Shown here piece by piece: positions 8,210 through 30,924 of a DNA stretch of 33,069 nt. The position numbers were made by a program, and so were the translations under genes. How positions within the stretch are numbered: the stretch's first letter is position 1; each line of letters begins with the position of its first letter. The stretch is taken from NCBI GenBank assembly GCA_027306925.1, contig DAHUXW010000028.1, positions 1-33,069 of the forward strand, given 5' to 3'. The stretch comes from Acidimicrobiaceae bacterium. GTDB taxonomy: Bacteria; Actinomycetota; Acidimicrobiia; Acidimicrobiales; Bog-793. The notes below the pieces were generated by a model. The model searched no databases and was not told the DNA's origin. It saw only the letters and a program-made list of their open reading frames with translations.

Positions 8210-11200
8210 CTACCCGCCCGGTCGGGCGTCCCGGGAGTCGCCGCTCCGACGGCGCCCGAGCGCGAGGAGCACCGCCCCCGCGACGGCCGCGCACGCGGCA
8301 CCTACGAGCAGCTGCTCGATCGGGAACCCCGTGTAGGGAAGCTCGGGCGCCGGTGGCGCGGCGCCGGGAACGTGCGTCGGAAGCTCGGGGAGCGCGACCT
8401 CGACCGCCGAGAGCGGGCTGCGCGCCGTGAGGACCGCGGTGCAGTGCAGCGCGGCGTCGAAACGGTAACCGGGCGGCGCGCGCACCTCCTTCAGGCACCA
8501 CGCGTGGCCGGCGGGCACTTCGACGACCATCCGGCCGTCGGCACGAGTCACGCCCGTCGCGTAGAACACGCCGTCGCGGATGCCGGCCGGGACGGTTCGA
8601 CCAGGCGCCCGGCCGGCGCCCGGCGCGGGACCGCCGACCGAGTACACGTCGTACTCGGCACCCGGGATCCCGGTGTCGGGCTGCAGCGAGTTGAACTTGT
8701 GCGCCTGGATTTCGACCATGCGCGGCCGCTCGGGTAGCGGCATGCGGAACGCGCTCGCAGGGCTCGCCGCGCCGAGCACCGTCGTGCAATGGGGTCGGGG
8801 GTCGGCGACGAAGTCGGGTGGCGCGGTGACCTCGACGAGGCACCAGGCGTGGCCGTCGGGCACGACGAGGTCGATGCCGCCCGCCCTGCCGGTGCGGGCG
8901 CGCCCCACCCAGGTGTCCCCGGCGAGCGGGCGCGGTGGCGGATCGGCGGGCCGCGGCCGCGGCGCGCCGGTGAGCGGCGGCCCGACGACGTACAGGTCGT
9001 AGACAGCCCCCGCGATCGGGCTCGTCGGCATCAGCGCGTCGTACGTGTGCGCCCGGATCGTGACGGTCGCCGGAGCGGCGGCCCGCCCCCGCCGGCGCCG
9101 CGCCGGTGCCCGGGGCGGCGCCGCCCCCCGTGGGCCCGGGGCCACAGGAGGAGCCGCGACGGGCGACGCCGCCGCTCGCACGTCGGCGATCGTCACGGCG
9201 GACGCGACCGGTGGCACGACGGTGCTCCCGGCGAGCACGGGCGTGCACGCGGGCGCAGCGTTGCGCACGTAGCCGGCAGGTGGCGAGGCCTCGACGACGC
9301 AGTACGCGTACCCGGGCAGCTCCAGCGGGAAGCTGACGGCGCCCGACCCGCTCGACGTCGCGCTCGCGACCCACGTCCCGCCCGCGAGCACCGGCGCACC
9401 CGCGGGCGGTGACGGCGGCGCAGGGACCCCGCCGGCGCCCATCCGGTAGAGGTCGAGAAGCGCGCCCGCGAGCAGGCCGTGCGGAGGACCCGCGTCGACC
9501 TTGTCGGCTGTGATCGCGACGTACTCGCCGGGCTCGGCGACGGCGACTGGCGCCGCACCCGTCGTGTCGCTCGCGACAAGGCATCCGCTCTCGCCACCGG
9601 CGAACCCTGCGGGGGCGACGGCCTCGTCCCAGCAGTAGCGCTGGCCCGCGACCAGCACGTCGGCGGTCGTGCAGGTCCCCGATGCCGACGTGGTGCAGGT
9701 CGCGACGACCGGTCCCGACGCTCCCCCGGTGCGCACGTCGAAGCGGGCGCCGGCGAGGTCGGGCGACGCCGGGTCGAAGTTGCCGGTCGGGTGCTTCGCG
9801 AACGAGATCGGGACCAGCTTCGGGTCCGCGAAGTCGAGCACCGCGACCGCTCCCGGGTCGAGCACGACGTCGCGGGTGGACGCGGTCGGATCGAGCGCGA
9901 ATCCGGCCGGAGCGGACACCTCGGTCACCTCGTAACGGCCCGGGAGCAGGCCGAGGCCGGAGCTCGCGCCCGGGGAGCACGCGCCGATCGAGTCGGTCGT
10001 GCAGCGACCCAGATCCTCGTCGTAGACACCCGACGCGCTCGAGTCGTACCGCACGTCGAACACGCCGCCCACGATCGGCGCGCTCGTCCCTGCGTCGAGG
10101 TTGTAGATGTCGAGCGACGCGGGGTCGACCGTGTCAGTCACGTCGACCATCGTCGTGGTGTGACCGAGCGCGACGACGGCGGTGAACGGCGGCAACGCGG
10201 AGTAGCCGGGGGGCGGATGCGTCTCGGTGAGGGTGTACGTTCCGGGCTGAAGGGACGCGACCACGTTCGAGGTGCCTGCGCTCGAAATTGCAAGCGTGCC
10301 GACAATTCCATTCGAAGGTGCGGCACCTTTTACGCTGAAGACGGCTCCGCCAACCGAGTAGTATGATTCGTCATTTCCCGCCATATTCACGGAAATTGAT
10401 CCGAATGCATAATTGGAGATGGACACCGCGTCAGAAGCGCCAGCATTCACGCTCACCATCTGCGTAGGTGCTGATCCCGATAAGTAGTAGCCAGTTGGCG
10501 ATGACACCTCTGTGACCTCATACATTCCGGGTAACAGCCCAGAGCCATCGTTTGGTGGTGATAGACATCTGCCTGATACACCGGTAAAACAAGAACCGAT
10601 GTTTTGCGTGAACACTGAATTGTTGAGCGGTGCATACGAGAACATGACTCGTCCACCGCTGAGAAATGTGCCGGTCTGCGAATCAGAGAGCTGTGCCGAC
10701 AACGTCCCTGGGATGGCGCGGTTCTCATTTGCGCCAGTGAAGTGCGCGGTCACATTGCCCCCGTCGATGACGGTCACGCTCTCGTCCGAGGCGGCGGCGT
10801 AACCCGGGGGCGGCGTCTCCTCGTGCACCGTGTAGGTCCCCGTCGGAAGTAGCTGGCTCGGGCCCGCGGCGCCGTTGCCGTCCGTCGTGAGCGTCGCGAC
10901 GACGGACCCTTGCGAGTCGATGACCTGGTACACGCCGCCTGCGAGGCCGAGGTATGCGACGTCATCCCCGCCTTCGTCGATCGACACTGTTCCCGCCGTC
11001 GGCGCGCCGCCGGTCGGGGAGATCGTGTCCGAGTTCGCCGCGGCCACGGGGGCCTCGGGGCCGACGATCGCGGCGCCGCTTCCGGTGGTGTCGTAGTACT
11101 GGAGCCCGAGCGCGCCGACGGTCGCCGTCGCGCTGATGCTCACGGCGGTCGACGCGCTGTCCGCGTAGATCTCCGCGCTCGCCTCGCCCAGCGAGTCGGT

Positions 11201-11914
11201 CGTGAACGCGGCGGTCGTCGCCCCACCCACGAAGGTGCCGCCCTGCACGCTCAGCGAGACGGACTGGCCCGCCGCCGCAGTACCCGAGCCAGGGAACACG
11301 ACTCGAAGCTGGAAGATCGCACCGGCCGTCGGCACTGACGAGATCCCGGTCGTGTTGAGGTCGACCGTCGGACTGCCCGTCGCTCCGCCGGCCTGCGAGT
11401 ACCAGGTCTCGAGTTGGTCGTACGCCGCGAGGAGGCCGCCGCTCGTCGGCAAGGTCGGCGCGCCCCAGGCTGCCTGGTCGTAGAGCAGCTGCGCAGCCTC
11501 GGCGATGTCGTCCGCGCTGTACTGGGCGGTTCCATCCCACGACCCGGTGGCGTCGGCCTCGCTGAACGCGAAGCCGATCGCGGCGAGCGTCGAGGAGTCC
11601 ACCCCCGTCGGCACGCCTCCCGGGGCGAAGGCGAGCGTCGGGTCCGGCGACACGGGCGCGCCAGCCGCCGCCGCCTCGAGCGCCCAACCGGTCGAGGTGG
11701 GGAAACCCGGGCCGTACGTCCCGTACCACCCCGACGACCCGTCGTAGTTGCCACACGCGCCGTGGAACGCGTAGGCAACGGAGGTCGATCCGCACACCGT
11801 CGCGGCGGACGCGGCCACAGACGAGATCTCGGCGCTCACGGCGATGGCACCCGCGGTCGCGGCAGCGAGCACCGCCGCGCGCCACACGATCCTCGCCACC
11901 GGTCTGCCTCGCAT
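8210..11914 (-). CDS. LPXTG-type surface protein with eight prealbumin-like (SpaA/CnaB) repeats
   Basis: This 1234-residue protein looks like a wall-anchored adhesin or pilus-like stalk. A signal peptide fills about residues 6-39. An N-terminal domain (40-170) contains Cys41, Cys54 and a LLYDQAAW segment with Gln147, which resembles a thioester domain. A beta-rich region (195-300) follows. Then come eight repeats, at about 308-399, 402-503, 504-595, 598-698, 701-796, 797-912, 949-1062 and 1066-1176. Each carries Glu followed three residues later by a Pro-rich GY/GF turn (Glu365, 469, 564, 665, 764, 875, 1028, 1143). A sorting signal LPYTG (1192-1196), a transmembrane helix and an Arg-rich tail end the protein. 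No sortase is in the window. The start may be ATG 11914 or GTG 11899, which has the better-spaced GAGG. A central segment is markedly poorer in GC. Confidence 0.9.
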   Translation of the reverse strand: MRGRPVARIVWRAAVLAAATAGAIAVSAEISSVAASAATVCGSTSVAYAFHGACGNYDGSSGWYGTYGPGFPTSTGWALEAAAAGAPVSPDPTLAFAPGGVPTGVDSSTLAAIGFAFSEADATGSWDGTAQYSADDIAEAAQLLYDQAAWGAPTLPTSGGLLAAYDQLETWYSQAGGATGSPTVDLNTTGISSVPTAGAIFQLRVVFPGSGTAAAGQSVSLSVQGGTFVGGATTAAFTTDSLGEASAEIYADSASTAVSISATATVGALGLQYYDTTGSGAAIVGPEAPVAAANSDTISPTGGAPTAGTVSIDEGGDDVAYLGLAGGVYQVIDSQGSVVATLTTDGNGAAGPSQLLPTGTYTVHEETPPPGYAAASDESVTVIDGGNVTAHFTGANENRAIPGTLSAQLSDSQTGTFLSGGRVMFSYAPLNNSVFTQNIGSCFTGVSGRCLSPPNDGSGLLPGMYEVTEVSSPTGYYLSGSAPTQMVSVNAGASDAVSISNYAFGSISVNMAGNDESYYSVGGAVFSVKGAAPSNGIVGTLAISSAGTSNVVASLQPGTYTLTETHPPPGYSALPPFTAVVALGHTTTMVDVTDTVDPASLDIYNLDAGTSAPIVGGVFDVRYDSSASGVYDEDLGRCTTDSIGACSPGASSGLGLLPGRYEVTEVSAPAGFALDPTASTRDVVLDPGAVAVLDFADPKLVPISFAKHPTGNFDPASPDLAGARFDVRTGGASGPVVATCTTSASGTCTTADVLVAGQRYCWDEAVAPAGFAGGESGCLVASDTTGAAPVAVAEPGEYVAITADKVDAGPPHGLLAGALLDLYRMGAGGVPAPPSPPAGAPVLAGGTWVASATSSGSGAVSFPLELPGYAYCVVEASPPAGYVRNAAPACTPVLAGSTVVPPVASAVTIADVRAAASPVAAPPVAPGPRGAAPPRAPARRRRGRAAAPATVTIRAHTYDALMPTSPIAGAVYDLYVVGPPLTGAPRPRPADPPPRPLAGDTWVGRARTGRAGGIDLVVPDGHAWCLVEVTAPPDFVADPRPHCTTVLGAASPASAFRMPLPERPRMVEIQAHKFNSLQPDTGIPGAEYDVYSVGGPAPGAGRAPGRTVPAGIRDGVFYATGVTRADGRMVVEVPAGHAWCLKEVRAPPGYRFDAALHCTAVLTARSPLSAVEVALPELPTHVPGAAPPAPELPYTGFPIEQLLVGAACAAVAGAVLLALGRRRSGDSRDARPGG
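10270..10790. other. Low-GC mosaic segment inside the surface-protein gene
   Basis: Within an otherwise GC-rich gene this stretch uses AT-rich codons throughout. By hand count 10561-10620 has 25 G/C of 60, against 43 of 60 at 9961-10020. It stays in frame and covers residues of about 375-549, namely repeat 2 and the first half of repeat 3. The edges are approximate. Confidence 0.75.
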
Positions 11915-11915
11915 A

Positions 11916-11960
11916 CTACGAAATCAATCCTCGTTGAGTCGTGATCTTCCACGGATTCAT
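11916..11960 (-). other. 14-codon upstream ORF before the surface-protein gene
   Basis: An ATG preceded by AGGAG with only a 3-nt spacer opens MNPWKITTQRGLIS. Its TAG ends 1 nt before the ATG of the surface protein. The tight placement would allow coupling or attenuation. Expression is not shown by the sequence alone, and the AGGAG overlaps a possible -10 box. Confidence 0.35.
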
Positions 11961-12170
11961 TTGCTCCTATAAGTAATGGGCTCGCGACGAACGGGATCGG
12001 TGAAATCTTCTCAGCCAGGGCTGTGTCAGGTAGCCACCGACTGTCACCTACATCGATGTGCTGCGAGAACAGATCGCATGGCTCAGGACAACGCGCCGCA
12101 TCCGTCATGCTTCGAGAAAACGTGAGGTGTGGCGTGAACGAGCGGCTCGCGACGAATCACTCTGGATTAG

Positions 12171-12206
12171 AGCGTGAATACCAGCGTGATGCGGAGCGTG
12201 AATTGG
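12171..12206 (+). promoter_or_regulatory. Three AGCGTGA heptamers at 12-bp period
   Basis: AGCGTGA begins at 12171, 12183 and 12195, exactly 12 bp apart. Further GCGTGA copies occur at 12132 and 12221. SARP-type regulators, which share the winged-helix/BTAD architecture of the third gene of the downstream operon, bind tandem heptamer repeats at about 11-bp period. This array is therefore a candidate operator for autoregulation and for control of the divergent surface protein. Confidence 0.45.
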
Positions 12207-12225
12207 ACGTGGCAGAGTCGGCGTG

Positions 12226-12945
12226 ATGAAACTACGCGCGCTCGACGCGATCCGGATCGAGTGGGAGCTCGTCGCGGCGTCGGACCGCGCCCGGCAAGTG
12301 CTCGACGACCTGGCACGGCTCGAGCCGGCGATCGGCCGGCTCGGCGTCACGGACCTCGCCGGCGTCGTCGCGACGACAAGCGGTCGGCTCGGGCCGGTGC
12401 CGGCGTCGGTCGTCCGCGAGGTGGTCGCGGGACTCGTCCGGCAGTTCGGCGCGGACGAGCTCGTCGGCGTCACCCTGGTCCGTTTGCTGCTCCCGGGGCT
12501 CGCGTCCGTCGCACGCGGTCTTCGATGGGGAGTCGGTGGGCCGTGGGCCGGCAGAGACGAGTTCGAGACCGATCTGGTCGCCGCCGCGTGGCACTCGCTC
12601 TATCTTCACGCCGGCGCGTCGCTCGGCCACCCGTGCAAGGTGATCCTCGAGCAGGCGAGGCGTTCACTGCGGACGGACCTCGAGCGTCACCGGCGGCACT
12701 TGGCCCGAAACCGTTCCGGCGAGGATCTGGACGACCTCGTCGCGCCGGGGCTCGACCACCTGAGCGAGCTCGCCCGGGCGCTCTCGCTCGTCTCGGGCTC
12801 TCTGATCACGAAGCGCGACGCGGCGCTCCTGCTCGCGAACCGCGTGTACGGCTACCGGCTGTCCGAGCTCGCGGAGCTCACCGGCGAAAGCGTCGCCCAG
12901 CTCAGCTATCGGAGACGCCTCGCTGAGCGAGCGGTGTGCCGGTGA
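12226..12945 (+). CDS. Sigma-70-like regulatory protein with C-terminal helix-turn-helix
   Basis: I recognise no named family, but the 239-residue protein has the outline of a divergent sigma factor. A region at 83-128 (LVRLLLPGLASVARGLRW, then DEFETDLVAAAWHSL) resembles sigma region 2. A basic segment with PCKVILEQARRSLRTDLERH (136-155) could be region 2.4. A C-terminal HTH at 196-236 (RLSELAELTGESVAQLSYRRR) resembles region 4. Starts are GTG 12223 or the adjoining ATG 12226, neither with a strong ribosome binding site. Its TGA overlaps the GTG of the next gene as GTGA, so the pair should be translationally coupled. It heads the operon divergent from the surface protein. It could direct polymerase to those promoters or be a non-sigma HTH regulator. 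Confidence 0.6.
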   Translation: MKLRALDAIRIEWELVAASDRARQVLDDLARLEPAIGRLGVTDLAGVVATTSGRLGPVPASVVREVVAGLVRQFGADELVGVTLVRLLLPGLASVARGLRWGVGGPWAGRDEFETDLVAAAWHSLYLHAGASLGHPCKVILEQARRSLRTDLERHRRHLARNRSGEDLDDLVAPGLDHLSELARALSLVSGSLITKRDAALLLANRVYGYRLSELAELTGESVAQLSYRRRLAERAVCR

Positions 12946-13856
12946 GCGCCGGTGCTCGTGCGCGCCCGCAGCCGGCGCGTGCACGGGTCCGACCGCGCGC
13001 TCCCGAGCTGGGCGGACACCGACGGGAGTACGCGTCATGGCTCACGCTCGGCCTCGTCGTCGCCGCGATCGTCGTCCTCACGACCTCACCGATGACTCGG
13101 CCACCGCACGCGGACGCCAGCCGCTCGTCGGCGCCCCGCCACGCGCGGGCGGTGCGCGGCGCGGGCGGTGCGCGACCCACGACCCCGGACGGGCCGGCGC
13201 GCGTGGTGCGCGGCGGTGCCGACGCGCGACGCCCGAGCCCGAGCGGGTCGGCGAGCGCGCCCCGGGTCGGGCCGAGCGCGCCGATCGCGACAACGACGAC
13301 CACGGCCACGCCACGCGCGGCGGCTCCGTCCACCGCGCCACCGGCCGTGGCCCGCGCTCCGGCGCCGACCGCGGCACCACCGCCCACGACCGTCGCCTCG
13401 ACGACCTCGACGACCTCGACGACCTCGACGACCTCGACGACCTCGACGACCTCGACGACCTCGACCGTGCCACTACCTGCCCGGACGACCACGACCAAGC
13501 CGGTACCGACAGGTGCGCGCGGGCAGGGATCCCCGCCGCACGCGCCGGCGGTCGCGAGCGTCGTCTCGCAGTCCTGGCCGGGCAACCTCGAGTACCCGGA
13601 CGACGTCGCCGCGACGTTCGCGCTGCGCACCTCCGGCGGGGTCGTGTCCGCGACCGCGGCCTGGTCCGGGACACCGGCGCTCAGCATCTCCGTGCGCTGC
13701 GACGGCGCGGGGCGCACCGCGACCGGGACGACCGGCCTGTACGTCGCGGCGGTAGCCGGACCGGGAACGTGCGCGGTCACGATCGCCGAGCCGGCCGGCA
13801 CCGAAGCGGTCGTGTCGTACTCGCTCGTCACCCACTATCCGGCCGTGCGGAGGTAG
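12942..13856 (+). CDS. Membrane-anchored stalk protein with Ser/Thr/Pro linker and C-terminal beta domain
   Basis: This 304-residue protein of unknown function has a basic N-terminus, one transmembrane helix at about 32-48 (WLTLGLVVAAIVVLTT), and a long Pro/Ala/Thr/Ser-rich linker. The linker contains a perfect Thr-Thr-Ser repeat of seven units. A folded domain of about 100 residues (206-304) follows, rich in beta-prone stretches with two Cys (about 253 and 277). Topology suggests an external domain on an extended stalk anchored in the membrane. GTG 12942 overlaps the upstream stop; GTG 12936 is an alternative. It is the middle gene of a coupled three-gene operon, between the sigma-like gene and the LysM-BTAD gene, and may be a partner of the latter at the cell surface. 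Confidence 0.7.
   Translation: MSAGARARPQPARARVRPRAPELGGHRREYASWLTLGLVVAAIVVLTTSPMTRPPHADASRSSAPRHARAVRGAGGARPTTPDGPARVVRGGADARRPSPSGSASAPRVGPSAPIATTTTTATPRAAAPSTAPPAVARAPAPTAAPPPTTVASTTSTTSTTSTTSTTSTTSTTSTVPLPARTTTTKPVPTGARGQGSPPHAPAVASVVSQSWPGNLEYPDDVAATFALRTSGGVVSATAAWSGTPALSISVRCDGAGRTATGTTGLYVAAVAGPGTCAVTIAEPAGTEAVVSYSLVTHYPAVRR
13396..13465. repeat. 9-bp tandem repeat encoding Thr-Thr-Ser, 7.8 copies
   Basis: The unit CCTCGACGA repeats exactly seven times, then breaks off after seven bases of an eighth copy. As 9 bp is three codons, changes in copy number lengthen or shorten the stalk of the encoded protein without shifting the frame. Confidence 0.95.
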
Positions 13857-13862
13857 TCGACG

Positions 13863-16595
13863 TTGACCAGCCGATCGAGAACGCTCGTGGCCGGCATCAG
13901 CGCGCTCGCGAAGTGTGCGCTCCTGCTCCTCGGCGTGCCGCTCGCCGTAGCCCGGCTCTGGACGCTCGCGCCCGGCCCGAGCGTCCTCGCACGGCCCGAG
14001 AGCTGGCTCGACCGCGCGACCGTGGACCACGCGGTGCTCGGGATCGTGGGCGCGCTCTGGGTCGTCGCGGCCACAAGCCTCGTCCGCGACGTGGCGAGGG
14101 CGCTGCGCGGCCGGCTCGTCGCGCCGCAGAGCTCCTGGTCTGCACGGTGGGCCTCCCGCGTCGCCGGACTGCTGCTCCTCATCTCGACGGGCTCCGCGAT
14201 CGCAGCGACCGGCGCGGTGGCGACCGCACGTGCGCCGCACCAGGCCTCTGTCGTCGCGGCGCTCCCCGTGGACGCCGGCGCACGCCCGCCTGACCCCCAT
14301 CCCGGCGCCGACCGAAGCGGGCCGGCGGTCGCGGCCGGCAGAGCGACCAGCCAGCCCGATCGCACGGCGACCAGGTCGTACGTCGTGCGCGCCGGCGACT
14401 GCCTCGCGAGCATCGCCGCCCGCGAGCTCGGCGACGCATCCGAGTGGACCGTGCTGTCGCGCTTGAACATGGGCCGCGTCCAGCCGGACGGACGGCGGAT
14501 GGTCGACCCGAGCCTCATCTACCCCGGTTGGGTCCTCGTCGTGCCCGCGTTCCCATCCGGAGAGCCGCCGGTGTCCGGACCCTCGCCCGCGCCGCGACCG
14601 GCGACGGCTCGCGACACGGCGCCGCGACCTGGCGGCCCGCTCCGGCCGGCCGGCCGTGCCGTGCTCCGACGCCCGGCTCCCGCTGCACGTGGCCCTCGCG
14701 CGTCCGGGCACGTGATGGCCGGTTCCGAGGCGCACCAGGCAGTCGACACCCCGACCGGCGAGCCCGTGCGAGCACTCGCCGAGCTCGCGATCCTCGGCCT
14801 CGGTGTGCTCACGACCGCGTCGATCGCCCGCCGTCTGCGCGCGTCACGGCGGGCGGCCGAGTGCCTGCGAATGCCCGGCGAGCGCGCGATCGGTCGATCC
14901 GGTGCGACCGCGGCCGCTGCTGCATCGATCGACCCGCTCGCGGACAGCGCGCTGCTCGACTGGGTGGACGGAGCGAACCGTCTCCTCTGGCGGACGTGCC
15001 GCGACCGGCGCACGAGCGCAGAGCTGCCGGTCGTGCGCCTCGTGCGCGCCGGGCCCGATGGGGTGCAGTGCGTGCTCCAAGAGCCGCTGCCCGCCGCACC
15101 CGAGGGGTTCGTCGCGACCGACGGCGGAAGGCAGTGGACGCTCGCGCCGGGCCTCGACCTCGACGACCTCGCCGCGCTCACGGCCGGTTGCGGGCGCTAC
15201 GTCCCCACGCTCGTCCCGCTCGGCGACGCCGCGGACGCCTCGTACCTCGCTGCGGTCGGTCCGGGGCACCACCTGACGCTCCAGCCGGACGGCGGCGACG
15301 CCGTCCGTGCGCTCGACGCCCTCGTCGTGGCGTTGCGGACGCTCCCGTGGGCGCACGAGGTCCAGGTCGAGCTCCTCGGGGTCGCTCCCCCGCCCGTGTC
15401 GCACGGGTGCCACTTCGTCGCTCGGACGACCGGGGCGGAGCTAGCCGAGATCGCGCGCGCTCCGCTGCCCGACCCGCGGCAGCGGCTCGAGGCCGCCTGG
15501 TCCGACGACGTCGTCGTCGTGCTCGGCGACGAGGCGACGCACGAGCTTCCCGAGCACGTCCTCGCCGCCGTCGGCGAGCGCGCCGGTATCGTCTCGATCG
15601 GCGGGCCGGGAGCGGTCTCGCTCGTCGTCCGCCAGGATCGGCTCGTCATCCTGCCCGACGGCGTCGAGCTGGAGCGTCGCGAGCCGACGCCGAGCCAGGC
15701 GGCGCTCGCCGAGGACCTCCTCGAGCTGCCGGTGCTCGTGGCGGCGCCCGAGTCGCCCGCGGCGGTGGTGCGCGCTGCAGCACCTGCCGCGCGCACGACG
15801 CGAGCGGGGCGTGTCGAGGTGCGCGTGCTCGCGCCGGTCCCGTCGCTCGACGGGCTCACCGTGCAACCGTCCAGCAAGGACCGCAGCCGGGTCGTCGAGC
15901 TCGTCGCGTACCTCGCGCTCTCAGGGCACGTCGCGACGACCGACTCCATCCGAGAGCAGGTCTTCGGCCGCAGTGACCGGGTCGCGTCGCTCGGCAGGGT
16001 GCACAACGTCTGCTCAGCCGCCCGCGCCGCGCTCGGATCGACCATCGACGGTCGCAGCCTGCTCCCCGCTGGCGCCGGCGGGCGCTACCGCCTCGACTCG
16101 GAGGTCAGCTGTGACTGGCTCCGCTTCGAGGTCATGCGCTCCGAGGCTCGGGTCGCGGCAGTGCCCGACGCGATCGCCCTGCTCGGCGACGCGCTCCGTC
16201 TCGTGGACGGCGCTCCGTGCGCGGACGTGGCTTCGGGGTGGGACTGGCTCATCTCGCGGGGCCTTCTCACCTCGATGATCTCGGCGATCGTCGACGCGGG
16301 CCACCACCTCGCCTCGCTGTCGATCGCCGGGCACGACCTCGAGCTTGCGGGCTGGGCCGTCGAAAAGGGGCGGCTCGCCGAGCCGTGCTCCGAGATGCTC
16401 GCGCGCGACGCGATGATCGTCGCGGACCTGCGCAGCGACCCGGACACGATCCGGCGCGAGTGGCGCGACCTCGAGCGCGGGCTGGCCCGCCTCGACGGCG
16501 ACGAGCCGTCCGCCGAGACCCGTGCGCTCTACGACGAGCTCGTCGCCGGTCGGACGGGCACGGCGGCGCGCTATCGGTCTGCGAGGAACGGGTAG
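13863..16595 (+). CDS. Membrane protein joining external LysM to cytoplasmic winged-helix/BTAD activator
   Basis: This 910-residue protein has hydrophobic helices at about 8-32, 56-74 and 97-120. A LysM domain at 172-229 (SYVVRAGDCLASIAARELG, ending PGWVLVVPA) and a Pro-rich linker follow. A fourth helix lies at 304-322, then a large middle domain (330-645), an OmpR-like winged helix (652-745) and a BTAD tetratricopeptide-like region (750-893). With the N-terminus inside, three helices put LysM outside and the fourth returns the chain to the cytoplasm. Peptidoglycan binding could thus be linked to DNA binding as in SARP activators. The TTG start at 13863 is supported by GGAGG 9 nt upstream; GTG 13887 is an alternative. 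It is the last gene of the operon. Its 3' end overlaps the convergent nitrilase gene by 25 nt. Confidence 0.85.
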   Translation: MTSRSRTLVAGISALAKCALLLLGVPLAVARLWTLAPGPSVLARPESWLDRATVDHAVLGIVGALWVVAATSLVRDVARALRGRLVAPQSSWSARWASRVAGLLLLISTGSAIAATGAVATARAPHQASVVAALPVDAGARPPDPHPGADRSGPAVAAGRATSQPDRTATRSYVVRAGDCLASIAARELGDASEWTVLSRLNMGRVQPDGRRMVDPSLIYPGWVLVVPAFPSGEPPVSGPSPAPRPATARDTAPRPGGPLRPAGRAVLRRPAPAARGPRASGHVMAGSEAHQAVDTPTGEPVRALAELAILGLGVLTTASIARRLRASRRAAECLRMPGERAIGRSGATAAAAASIDPLADSALLDWVDGANRLLWRTCRDRRTSAELPVVRLVRAGPDGVQCVLQEPLPAAPEGFVATDGGRQWTLAPGLDLDDLAALTAGCGRYVPTLVPLGDAADASYLAAVGPGHHLTLQPDGGDAVRALDALVVALRTLPWAHEVQVELLGVAPPPVSHGCHFVARTTGAELAEIARAPLPDPRQRLEAAWSDDVVVVLGDEATHELPEHVLAAVGERAGIVSIGGPGAVSLVVRQDRLVILPDGVELERREPTPSQAALAEDLLELPVLVAAPESPAAVVRAAAPAARTTRAGRVEVRVLAPVPSLDGLTVQPSSKDRSRVVELVAYLALSGHVATTDSIREQVFGRSDRVASLGRVHNVCSAARAALGSTIDGRSLLPAGAGGRYRLDSEVSCDWLRFEVMRSEARVAAVPDAIALLGDALRLVDGAPCADVASGWDWLISRGLLTSMISAIVDAGHHLASLSIAGHDLELAGWAVEKGRLAEPCSEMLARDAMIVADLRSDPDTIRREWRDLERGLARLDGDEPSAETRALYDELVAGRTGTAARYRSARNG

Positions 16596-19877: not shown

Positions 19878-21314
19878 TCACGAGTCGAAGCCGAGGCCGA
19901 GACGGTCGAGGAGCCGTAGCCATGCGCCGCGGCGGCCGTCGGCTGCGTCCGCGCGGGCGATCGCGTGCCGCGTCATCGCGACGACCACGGACCGCAGGGG
20001 CTCCGGCGGGAACGGGACCGGCATGGACCGCACCATCTCGAGCGACGTGCGCTCCGTCTCGGCGCCCGAGATCAGGTCGAGCAGCACGTCCGCCGCGAAC
20101 CGGGAGGCGCCGACACCGAGGCCGGTGAACCCTGCCGCGTACGCGACGCGCCCGTCGTGCGCGGTCCCGTAGAACGCGCAGAACCGAGAGCAGGTGTCGA
20201 TCGCGCCGCCCCAGGCGTGGGTGAACCGCACACCGGCGAGCTGCGGGAACGTCTCGAAGAAGTGGCCCGCGAGGAGGGCGAACGTCGCGGGGCGGACCTC
20301 GCGGCGCGCACCCATCGAACCGTTGAAGTAGTAGAGCGCGTCGTAGCCACCGAACAGGACGCGGTCGTCGGGCGTGAGCCGGTAGTAGTGGAACTGGTTC
20401 CCCATGTCGGAGAGCCCCTCACGCCCCTGCCAGCGAAGCGCGTCACGGCGACGCGCGTCGAGCGGTTCGGTCGCGAGCACGTAGTCGTACACGGGGATGA
20501 CGTAGCGGCGCACCCTTCGCACGAGCGGCGGGAACGCGCTCGTCGCGACGACCGCTCGGTCGGCGACGACCGTCCCGCGCTCGGTGCTGCAGCGCACCGC
20601 GCCGTCGACGGCCTCGAGCGAGGCCACGGGCGAGCGCTCGAGCACGATCCCGCCGCGCGCCTCGATCGCGGACGCGAGCCCCCACGCGAGACGCGCAGGG
20701 TCGACGAGTGAGGTCGTGCGGCGGTGGAAGACGCCGCCCAGGTAGGTCGGCGAGTCCACCCGGTCACGGAGCGCGCTCCGATCGAGCACCTCGACGTCCT
20801 CGCCGTGGGCGAGCGCGAGACGTGCGGCGTCCTCGACCGACGCGGCCTGCCACGGCGCGGTCGCGACGTCGATCGACCCGACCCGCTCGAAGCCGCAGTC
20901 GATGCGCTCGCGCGCGATCGTCGCCTCGATCCCGTCGAGGTTGTCCGCGCCCATCGCGACGAGCCGGTCGATCTCCGACGCGAAGCGAGCGACGCCGTTC
21001 TCGAGCCCGTGGGTGAGGCTCGCGTCGACGAAGCCGCCGTTGCGCCCGGACGCCGCCGACGCGATCCGCGCGCCCTCGACGACCACGACCTTGCGCCCCG
21101 GGTCGCGCTCGAGCGCCCGGAGCGCGCTCCACAGGCCGGTGAAGCCCGCGCCGACCACGACGAGGTCCGCGCGCCGCGCGCCCACGAGGGCGTCGCGAGC
21201 GTCCGGAGCGGCGCTCGAGTCGAGCCAGAGCGGGACGTGCGCCGCGCCCCGAAGTGCGCCGCGGACCCCGTGGGGCACGACGCCGTTCGTACCGGCCGGC
21301 TGCGGATTTCGCAA
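19878..21314 (-). CDS. FAD-dependent amine oxidoreductase, DAO/PuuB-like
   Basis: This 478-residue flavoenzyme of the D-amino-acid oxidase family has the FAD-binding GAGFTG (Gly55, Gly57, Gly60) and SGRNGGF at 89-95. The C-terminal AYAAGFTGLGVGAS motif places the second FAD-binding stretch. The family includes gamma-glutamylputrescine oxidase (PuuB) and other secondary-amine oxidases. Location beside the potADBC genes favours an amine or polyamine-derived substrate. The TTG start at 21314 is chosen because AGGAG lies 5 nt upstream. It is divergent from potA across about 250 nt. A paralogue with the same motif spacing lies at the far end of the island. Confidence 0.88.
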   Translation of the reverse strand: MRNPQPAGTNGVVPHGVRGALRGAAHVPLWLDSSAAPDARDALVGARRADLVVVGAGFTGLWSALRALERDPGRKVVVVEGARIASAASGRNGGFVDASLTHGLENGVARFASEIDRLVAMGADNLDGIEATIARERIDCGFERVGSIDVATAPWQAASVEDAARLALAHGEDVEVLDRSALRDRVDSPTYLGGVFHRRTTSLVDPARLAWGLASAIEARGGIVLERSPVASLEAVDGAVRCSTERGTVVADRAVVATSAFPPLVRRVRRYVIPVYDYVLATEPLDARRRDALRWQGREGLSDMGNQFHYYRLTPDDRVLFGGYDALYYFNGSMGARREVRPATFALLAGHFFETFPQLAGVRFTHAWGGAIDTCSRFCAFYGTAHDGRVAYAAGFTGLGVGASRFAADVLLDLISGAETERTSLEMVRSMPVPFPPEPLRSVVVAMTRHAIARADAADGRRGAWLRLLDRLGLGFDS

Positions 21315-29453: not shown

Positions 29454-29494
29454 ACGGTGCCGCGACCGCCGAGGCGCCCGGCGGCACCGCGTGA
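29450..29494 (+). other. 14-codon relay micro-ORF between aminotransferase and FAD oxidase
   Basis: GTG overlaps the aminotransferase TGA as GTGA. Fourteen codons (VNGAATAEAPGGTA) end in a TGA that overlaps the next gene's GTG as GTGA. The stop-to-start gap is 37 nt, identical to potB-potC. No ribosome binding site precedes the downstream start. Confidence 0.35.
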
Positions 29495-30924
29495 GCGCCT
29501 CGCCGGCGCGTCGGCGCCCGCCCGCGGCACACGGCGCGCCCGCGGAGCCGAGACCGCTCGCGGACCTGTCGTACTGGTTCGCGTCGCTCGGCTCGCCGGT
29601 CGTCGCCCGGCCGCCGCTCGGCGGCGACGCCGCCGTCGACGTCGCGATCGTCGGCGGCGGCTTCACCGGATTGTGGACCGCGTACTACCTGCTGACGAAG
29701 GAGCCGTCGACGCGGATCGCCGTGCTCGAGGCCGAGGTCGCGGGCTTCGGCGCGTCCGGCCGAAACGGCGGCTGGTGCTCGGCGCTCTTCGCCGCGTCCG
29801 ACGGGCGGATCGCGCGCTCGTTCGGGCCCGGCGCGGCGAAGGCGATGCGCGCGGCGATGCGCGCGTCGGTCGACGAGGTAGGCCGCGTCGCCGCGCGCGA
29901 GGGCATCGACTGTCACTTCGCGAAGGGCGGGACGGTCGGCGCGATCCGCAGCGCGGCGCAGCTCGCGAGGGCCCGGGCGGAGCTCGAGGAGGCCCGGGCG
30001 CTGGGCGTCGGAGCGGACGACCTCGCGCTCCTCGGCCCCGACGAGGCGAGCGCGATGCTCGCGGCCGAGCGAATGCTCGGCGCGACCTACACGCCGCACT
30101 GCGCGGCGATCCACCCCGCGCGCCTCGTACGCGGGCTCGCGGACTGCGTCGAGCGGCTCGGCGCGACCGTGTTCGAGGGAACGCGCGCCCGGGCGATCGC
30201 ACCGGGACGCGTCGAGACCGACCACGGCACCGTCCGGGCGGACGTCGTCGTACGGGCGACCGAGGGCTACACCGCCCGCCTGCGGGGCCAGCGACGCGCG
30301 GTCGCCCCCGTCTACTCGCTCATGATCGCGACCGAGCCGCTCCCCGAGCAGACTTGGGACGAGATCGGTCTCGGGCGCCGGGAGACCTTCTCCGACCACC
30401 GGCACCTCGTGATCTACGGCCAGCGCACCGCCGACGGCCGGATCGCCTTCGGCGGCCGCGGCGCGCCGTACCACTTCGGATCCGCGATCCGGGCCGCGCA
30501 CGAGCGCGTGCCGCGGGTCCACGACATGTTGGCCGCGACGCTCGTCGAGCTGTTCCCGGCACTGCGCGACGCGGCGGTCACGCACCGGTGGGGCGGTCCA
30601 CTCGGCATCCCGCGCGACTGGTTCTCGTCGGTCGCGTTCGACCGGCGCACGGGGATGGCCGCGGCGGGCGGCTACGTCGGCGACGGGGTGTCCACGGCGA
30701 ACCTCGCAGGCCGGACGCTCGCGGATCTCGTGCTCGGGAGCGACTCCGAGCTCACGCGACTGCCGTGGGTCGGCCACCGCTCACGGCCCTGGGAGCCGGA
30801 GCCCCTGAGATTCCTCGGGGTGAACGCGGGGCTCGCGGTGATCGCCTCGGCGGACCGCGTCGAGCAGCGGACGGGCCGCCCTGCGCGCCGGGCGGCGTGG
30901 TTCGAGCGCGTCACGGGCGGCTGA
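29491..30924 (+). CDS. FAD-dependent amine oxidoreductase, DAO/PuuB-like
   Basis: This 477-residue paralogue of the flavoenzyme at 19878-21314 has GGGFTG (Gly55, Gly57, Gly60) and SGRNGGW at 89-95, at the same residue numbers. IHPARLVRGLA and a C-terminal AAGGYVGDGVSTANLAGRT follow. It probably oxidises an amine such as gamma-glutamylputrescine, or an N-substituted amino acid. Third in the lrp-aminotransferase run, it is coupled upstream through a 14-codon micro-ORF. The N-terminal 20 residues are Pro/Arg-rich and may not be folded; a later start is possible. Confidence 0.88.
   Translation: MSASPARRRPPAAHGAPAEPRPLADLSYWFASLGSPVVARPPLGGDAAVDVAIVGGGFTGLWTAYYLLTKEPSTRIAVLEAEVAGFGASGRNGGWCSALFAASDGRIARSFGPGAAKAMRAAMRASVDEVGRVAAREGIDCHFAKGGTVGAIRSAAQLARARAELEEARALGVGADDLALLGPDEASAMLAAERMLGATYTPHCAAIHPARLVRGLADCVERLGATVFEGTRARAIAPGRVETDHGTVRADVVVRATEGYTARLRGQRRAVAPVYSLMIATEPLPEQTWDEIGLGRRETFSDHRHLVIYGQRTADGRIAFGGRGAPYHFGSAIRAAHERVPRVHDMLAATLVELFPALRDAAVTHRWGGPLGIPRDWFSSVAFDRRTGMAAAGGYVGDGVSTANLAGRTLADLVLGSDSELTRLPWVGHRSRPWEPEPLRFLGVNAGLAVIASADRVEQRTGRPARRAAWFERVTGG

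Follow-up and report, generated by a model that had tools for sequence, protein, structure and literature searches.

ToxR/CadC-type regulators join a cytoplasmic OmpR-type winged helix to a sensor domain outside the cytoplasm, and a gene beside theirs encodes a small membrane partner. Proteins of the SARP/EmbR type (EmbR, AfsR, PimR, ActII-ORF4) carry a winged helix followed by a BTAD domain, and their classical operators repeat every 11 bp (PMC5930380), although spacers of 4-15 nt (PMC10972967), as well as 10-bp units and wider spacers (PMC5930380, PMC10972967), are also on record. Tandem head-to-tail repeats of 2-4 units are a hallmark of SARP-type winged helices and not of region-4 HTHs (PMC5930380, PMC10972967). 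Proteins that combine LysM and BTAD domains appear in the literature examined in passing annotation only; one of them, PAGK_2369 in the Tad locus of a P. acnes plasmid, is listed as TadB with LysM and BTAD domains (PMC3666418).

Architecture of the divergon

The window, that is, the whole stretch of 33,069 nucleotides that was analysed, is an entire contig (C6) of a 2.87 Mb draft genome (G000). The nearest named record is the MAG 'Actinomycetes bacterium isolate JA1.bin31', which contains the congener locus (L002). The features are as follows, with 'sig' standing for the sig-like gene and its homologs.

8210-11914, minus strand: surface protein (adhesin), 1234 aa, with a signal peptide, about seven SpaA prealbumin-like repeats and an LPYTG sorting signal
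11915-12225: shared intergenic region of the divergon, read directly and aligned with four relatives
11940-11944, plus strand: single CGTGA, 26 bp from the adhesin start codon and at the same distance in L002
12121-12137, plus strand: repeat array 1, CGTGAGGTGTGGCGTGA, two copies with a 12-bp period, conserved in position across the five genomes aligned
12172-12203, plus strand: repeat array 2, GCGTGAATACCAGCGTGATGCGGAGCGTGAAT, three copies with a 12-bp period, ending about 22 bp before the sig start
12226-12945, plus strand: sig-like protein, 239 aa, helical, with a C-terminal region-4-like HTH (alignment of nine homologs)
12936-13856, plus strand: stalk protein, with one TM segment, a Ser/Thr/Pro-rich stalk and a small external domain with two invariant Cys
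13863-16595, plus strand: LysM/BTAD membrane regulator (putative), 910 aa, four TM segments
14355-14549, plus strand: LysM domain of LysM/BTAD, aa 165-229, predicted extracytoplasmic
15825-16502, plus strand: winged-helix and BTAD region of LysM/BTAD, about aa 655-880, predicted cytoplasmic, EmbR-like

The sequence-only reading of this DNA had taken all four ORFs to be real and the repeat surface protein, with its LPYTG signal, to diverge from a tightly coupled sig-like/stalk/LysM-BTAD operon. Both points are confirmed: the ORFs are conserved in alignments with relatives, the sig-like and stalk genes overlap, and 6 bases separate stalk from LysM/BTAD. The sig-like ATG at 12226 aligns with the congener start (an alternative GTG lies at 12223), and the TTG start of LysM/BTAD is backed by alignment to the congener's ATG. 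Elsewhere in the window, two FAD-dependent oxidoreductase (DAO) genes (19878-21314 and 29491-30924) enclose a set encoding an ABC transporter, a solute-binding protein, an aldehyde dehydrogenase and a class-III aminotransferase, which suggests a polyamine or amino-acid breakdown cluster.

The encoded proteins

The adhesin shares SpaA prealbumin-like repeats, an LPXTG motif and a hydrophobic anchor with SpaA/SpaH-type sortase-anchored surface proteins. Pfam SpaA matches it over seven stretches (E 4e-45), and the signal peptide and repeats are followed by a C terminus of LPYTG, a hydrophobic stretch and a positively charged RRR; the sorting signal is LPFTG in the adhesins of L002 and L023. It differs from those proteins in scoring 50 bits with the SpaH/EbpB pilin model, whose cut-off is 95, and in having no sortase C adjoining it. 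No sortase of any kind was found within the window, and the two PF04203 matches in the genome lie on contigs C35 and C8, unlinked to the divergon. Neither the pilin score nor the gene's surroundings, which lack a sortase C, support a role as major subunit of a sortase-assembled pilus. A thioester domain in the N terminus was rejected, as its candidate Gln (YDQAAW) is replaced by His in L002 and by Glu in L023.

In the LysM/BTAD protein, four hydrophobic segments (12-30, 52-70, 100-118 and 304-322) were identified, with the LysM domain (NCBIfam match, 6e-6) between the third and fourth. A Pfam search of the window protein did not reach its wHTH/BTAD half; winged helix and BTAD are present by the family profile, which matches EmbR (PDB 2fez) at E 4.6e-9 over chain 38-255, and by Pfam BTAD matches in 4 of 13 homologs. 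This half is also the best conserved part of the protein between window and congener, and the EmbR similarity extends over both of its domains. Positive charges and the hydrophobic segments fit a predicted topology with LysM outside and the C-terminal BTAD half inside, as the sequence-only reading had proposed. The domains, and the topology as a prediction, are shown by these analyses. The protein resembles SARP/EmbR-type regulators in the succession of winged helix and BTAD and in the tandem direct repeats that are its presumed operator, but it is membrane-anchored, carries an external LysM domain and lies outside an antibiotic cluster, and the repeats have a 12-bp instead of the classical 11-bp period. 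We liken it to ToxR/CadC in its working only and claim no membership by sequence; the window protein differs in its four TM segments, BTAD and LysM domain.

The stalk protein has a single N-terminal membrane segment (33-49), a low-complexity stalk and an external domain whose two Cys are invariant in all 10 of the 10 loci compared. Sigma-70 region 4/ECF-like proteins resemble the sig-like protein in its small helical form and its candidate C-terminal HTH with a GY.L.ELA..tG pattern, but the family evidence is weak: Sigma70_r4_2 matched one homolog only, at E 0.023, and the alignment of nine homologs gave no significant Pfam or PDB match, including for sigma region 2, which is not demonstrable. 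Pfam and NCBIfam gave no significant match to the sig-like and stalk proteins themselves. AlphaFold models of two sequences each reached a mean pLDDT of 35 for the cytoplasmic part of LysM/BTAD and 46 for the sig-like protein, and were not used.

Gene order in relatives

The four genes recur in unchanged order in the congener locus L002, with identities to the window of 57% (adhesin), 67% (sig), 78% (stalk, C-terminal part/external domain) and 57% (LysM/BTAD). In a second genus, two loci (L022, L023) carry all four genes up to the contig ends and a third (L024) carries three of the four before its contig ends, and the flanks are syntenic in the order PFK, pirin, [adhesin, sig], stalk, LysM/BTAD, AlaDH. 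The four-gene order, whose conservation the sequence-only reading had put forward as a check, is thus kept within two genera. Its further proposal of a self-contained four-gene unit fared less well, as the adhesin is not fixed and most relatives' cassettes do without it. Searches of 35 family genomes recovered the adhesin N terminus in 4, with homologs only in G001, G029 and G031; the adhesin is confined to two genera, so that its link with the cassette represents one evolutionary event. Within the family, it occurs only where sig, stalk and LysM/BTAD are all present.

Four loci from other family genera (L058, L061, L062, L066) have stalk and LysM/BTAD directly after pirin, with neither adhesin nor sig. 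Since these relatives keep both genes there, stalk and LysM/BTAD are, as far as the compared loci show, old at the pirin-AlaDH site, and adhesin and sig are a clade-specific state. In genome G011 (L014, L015), PFK and AlaDH enclose sig, and adhesin, stalk, LysM/BTAD and array are all missing from the site; a profile search located a LysM/BTAD of this genome on another contig, and the sig gene is possibly a leftover of the cassette. The four-gene set is not the old unit: sig-like and LysM/BTAD genes are neighbours across the order, and the 'adhesin circuit' is one particular instance of a more widespread regulatory cassette.

Repeat arrays with a 12-bp period

Within 308 bp, the shared intergenic region holds six copies of CGTGA, for which a Markov model gives a P of about 1e-4. 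Pairs spaced at 12 bp start at 12121, 12173 and 12185 on the plus strand, against 0.14 expected in the whole window, and a genome-wide search for the strict form GCGTGA-N6-GCGTGA gave a single further match. For array 2, L002 likewise has an array of copies. The sequence-only reading had described a heptamer array of the kind that SARPs bind. The repeats are indeed real, conserved and site-specific, but their unit is (G)CGTGA-N6/7 at 12 bp and not the SARP heptamer at 11; the classical operator form of heptamer direct repeats with an 11-bp period does not occur, the period being 12 bp here and in relatives. A scan of the intergenic region for Sigma-70 promoters found none, and CGTGA counts in the genome's own Tad cluster (L145), which served as a control, gave scattered coding pairs only. 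The region also contains an exact 13-nt direct repeat, GGCTCGCGACGAA, at 11979-11991 and 12144-12156, 165 bases apart and not seen in the congener.

Exact k-mer lags were compared between 41 sig upstream regions and 3409 matched control segments. Exact 7-mers are repeated at lag 12 in 22 of the 41 regions and in 10.5% of controls, and exact 9-mers at this lag in 10 of the 41 and in 1.9%; a comparable excess is seen at no other lag but 24 (2 x 12). The binomial value for 7-mers is 1e-11, which is overstated because the 41 loci are related and hence not independent. Counted by genus, clear arrays are present in at least 10 genera, and both of two paralog loci that were added later carry them at a 12-bp period. 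No clear array was evident in about half of the sig loci, a good many of which belong to one genus (g38). Array sequence differs by lineage, and the period of 12 bp is constant save in L140:

TCGGGAA: G005, two sig paralogs, 12-bp period
TGTGAGG: G007, 12-bp period
GGGAGAACC: L123, 12-bp period
GGGGAGC: L124, 12-bp period
GGCAACAAC: L126, 12-bp period
GGGGAAG: L128 and L132, 12-bp period
GTTGAGG: L141, 12-bp period
CGGGAGG: L142 and L147, 12-bp period
CACGAC: L139, 12-bp period
GTGCAGAC: L140, about 10050, upstream of sig, 13-bp period instead of 12

Because they are found before sig homologs, in 22 of 41 regions against 10.5% of controls, the arrays are most likely an operator of the cassette. 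Gene-order and array conservation, and the tie of arrays to sig homologs, are direct results of these comparisons.

Association with Tad pili and conjugation genes

Of 296 genomes of the class, 35 contain sig homologs, and LysM/BTAD was present in 6 of 6 sig-bearing genomes tested. In family f12 (L124, L125, L127, L129, L130, L133-L137) and in L123, sig immediately precedes LysM/BTAD, whether stalk is present or not. In three loci (L140, L141, L142), sig opens a Tad cluster that LysM/BTAD closes; in two others (L138, L139) sig adjoins Tad genes (T2SSE, T2SSF, TadE). Further homologs stand beside TraG/TraD (L128, L132), TrwC relaxase (L126, L139, L142) or prim-pol and integrase (L016). In G013 both sig and LysM/BTAD are present twice, and the members of each pair lie within some 10 kb. 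One of its sig homologs shares 91% identity with a homolog encoded on an Iamia plasmid, and Iamia is therefore probably a member of the order. Given these neighbours, sig and LysM/BTAD appear to form a pair of regulators that moves together with pilus and conjugation genes; in the window the pair stands on its own next to another type of surface structure.

Streptomyces and Microbacterium plasmids carry LysM/BTAD without sig, directly after a Tad operon. These proteins and PAGK_2369 have the same architecture as the window protein at 24-36% identity, with homology over LysM, BTAD and membrane segments, and are encoded by the last gene of their Tad operons. The window gene, in contrast, occupies a fixed chromosomal place beside a SpaA adhesin, after sig-like and stalk genes. 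No Tad genes were found within the window, and the genome's Tad cluster lies on contig C91.

A candidate regulatory cassette and its alternatives

Our preferred reading, with a probability of about 0.5, is that sig-like, stalk and LysM/BTAD form an actinobacterial surface-structure regulatory cassette with the array as operator, paired here with an adhesin. LysM/BTAD would be a membrane-spanning one-component regulator, with LysM outside and the SARP/EmbR-type winged helix and BTAD inside, and stalk would probably partner it on the outside. Depending on the state of the wall or envelope, LysM/BTAD would change and bind the 12-bp array before the sig-like gene, the presumed cassette operator, and set transcription of that gene and possibly, from the shared region, of the adhesin; the sig-like protein may then act further on surface genes. 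In other families the same regulators accompany Tad-pilus operons and conjugation genes. In this clade the cassette keeps a constant chromosomal position and has acquired a divergent, sortase-anchored adhesin as its counterpart. We infer wall sensing by LysM/BTAD, its reading of the arrays and adhesin control from this context, and the last of these is the weakest step, because sig is nearer to the arrays than the adhesin is.

That distance, 20-110 bp from the sig start and about 205-290 bp from the adhesin start, also speaks for the adhesin being a mere neighbour with its own far-end promoter while the cassette controls itself and perhaps genes elsewhere. Most relatives' cassettes lack an adhesin, which occurs in two genera only. 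The divergent order is nevertheless kept down to 57% protein identity across two genera, the family has no adhesin except where the other three genes are present, and elsewhere the cassette accompanies a surface structure of another kind, Tad pili; we regard mere neighbourhood as a serious contender that falls short of an even chance. It is quite unlikely, in our view, that LysM/BTAD is an envelope assembly or scaffold part with a degenerate wHTH-BTAD fold and not a DNA-binding regulator. Its place at the end of Tad operons, the annotation of PAGK_2369 as a pilus-assembly protein (PMC3666418) and a middle region unlike known regulators would suit such a role, yet the conserved, EmbR-like wHTH-BTAD half and the association with a further HTH protein and with repeat arrays argue for regulation.

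Which protein reads the arrays is a separate matter. The sequence-only reading had simply assigned the array to the BTAD protein, and as the sole reading this was dropped, since arrays track the sig-like gene across the class. Their strict linkage to sig favours the sig-like protein as reader, regulating its own operon while LysM/BTAD acts on other targets: arrays precede sig even without an adjacent LysM/BTAD (L017, L018, L126, L128, L132), six f1 loci with stalk and LysM/BTAD and without sig have no 12-bp array near the stalk start, and the three sig paralogs of G264 differ in array sequence. However, tandem repeats of 2-4 units are typical of SARP-type winged helices and not of region-4 HTHs, which favours LysM/BTAD, and the spacers of 4-15 nt reported for SARPs make the 12-bp period compatible with such a reader. 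The two G005 paralogs, moreover, share the TCGGGAA array and not the recognition helix, and LysM/BTAD is present in every sig-bearing genome tested, so that sig as the necessary reader was dropped as well; reading by sig keeps a substantial chance, although below that of the cassette as we propose it.

Mobile-element relatives and significance

Together, the divergon and the recurring 12-base repeats point to a real and so far undescribed control switch for surface structures, and the pattern is, across the genomes compared, conserved and more general than the sequence-only reading could show. If the proposed cassette holds, actinobacteria would possess a membrane-bound, peptidoglycan-binding version of a SARP that ties the state of the wall to adhesins and Tad pili, and a sigma-like family without described function, which adjoins Tad, relaxase and TraG genes on mobile elements, would gain a precise operator in the 12-bp arrays. 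More tentatively, and somewhat doubtful as yet, a two-tier regulator of Tad pili and conjugation, composed of the membrane LysM/BTAD and the sigma-like protein and working via lineage-specific 12-bp operator arrays, may have derived from mobile elements, become chromosomal and been rewired here to wall-dependent adhesin control. In G005, the TCGGGAA array also lies before a prim-pol gene with an integrase alongside (L016, 6787-6930), and for this reason its sig-stalk-LysM/BTAD cassette seems to be part of a mobile element.

Sig-type 12-bp arrays also recur inside the adjacent TrwC relaxase coding region, at the corresponding place, in L139 (11038-11090) and L142 (7736-7812), where they could represent a second operator or an oriT-related site.
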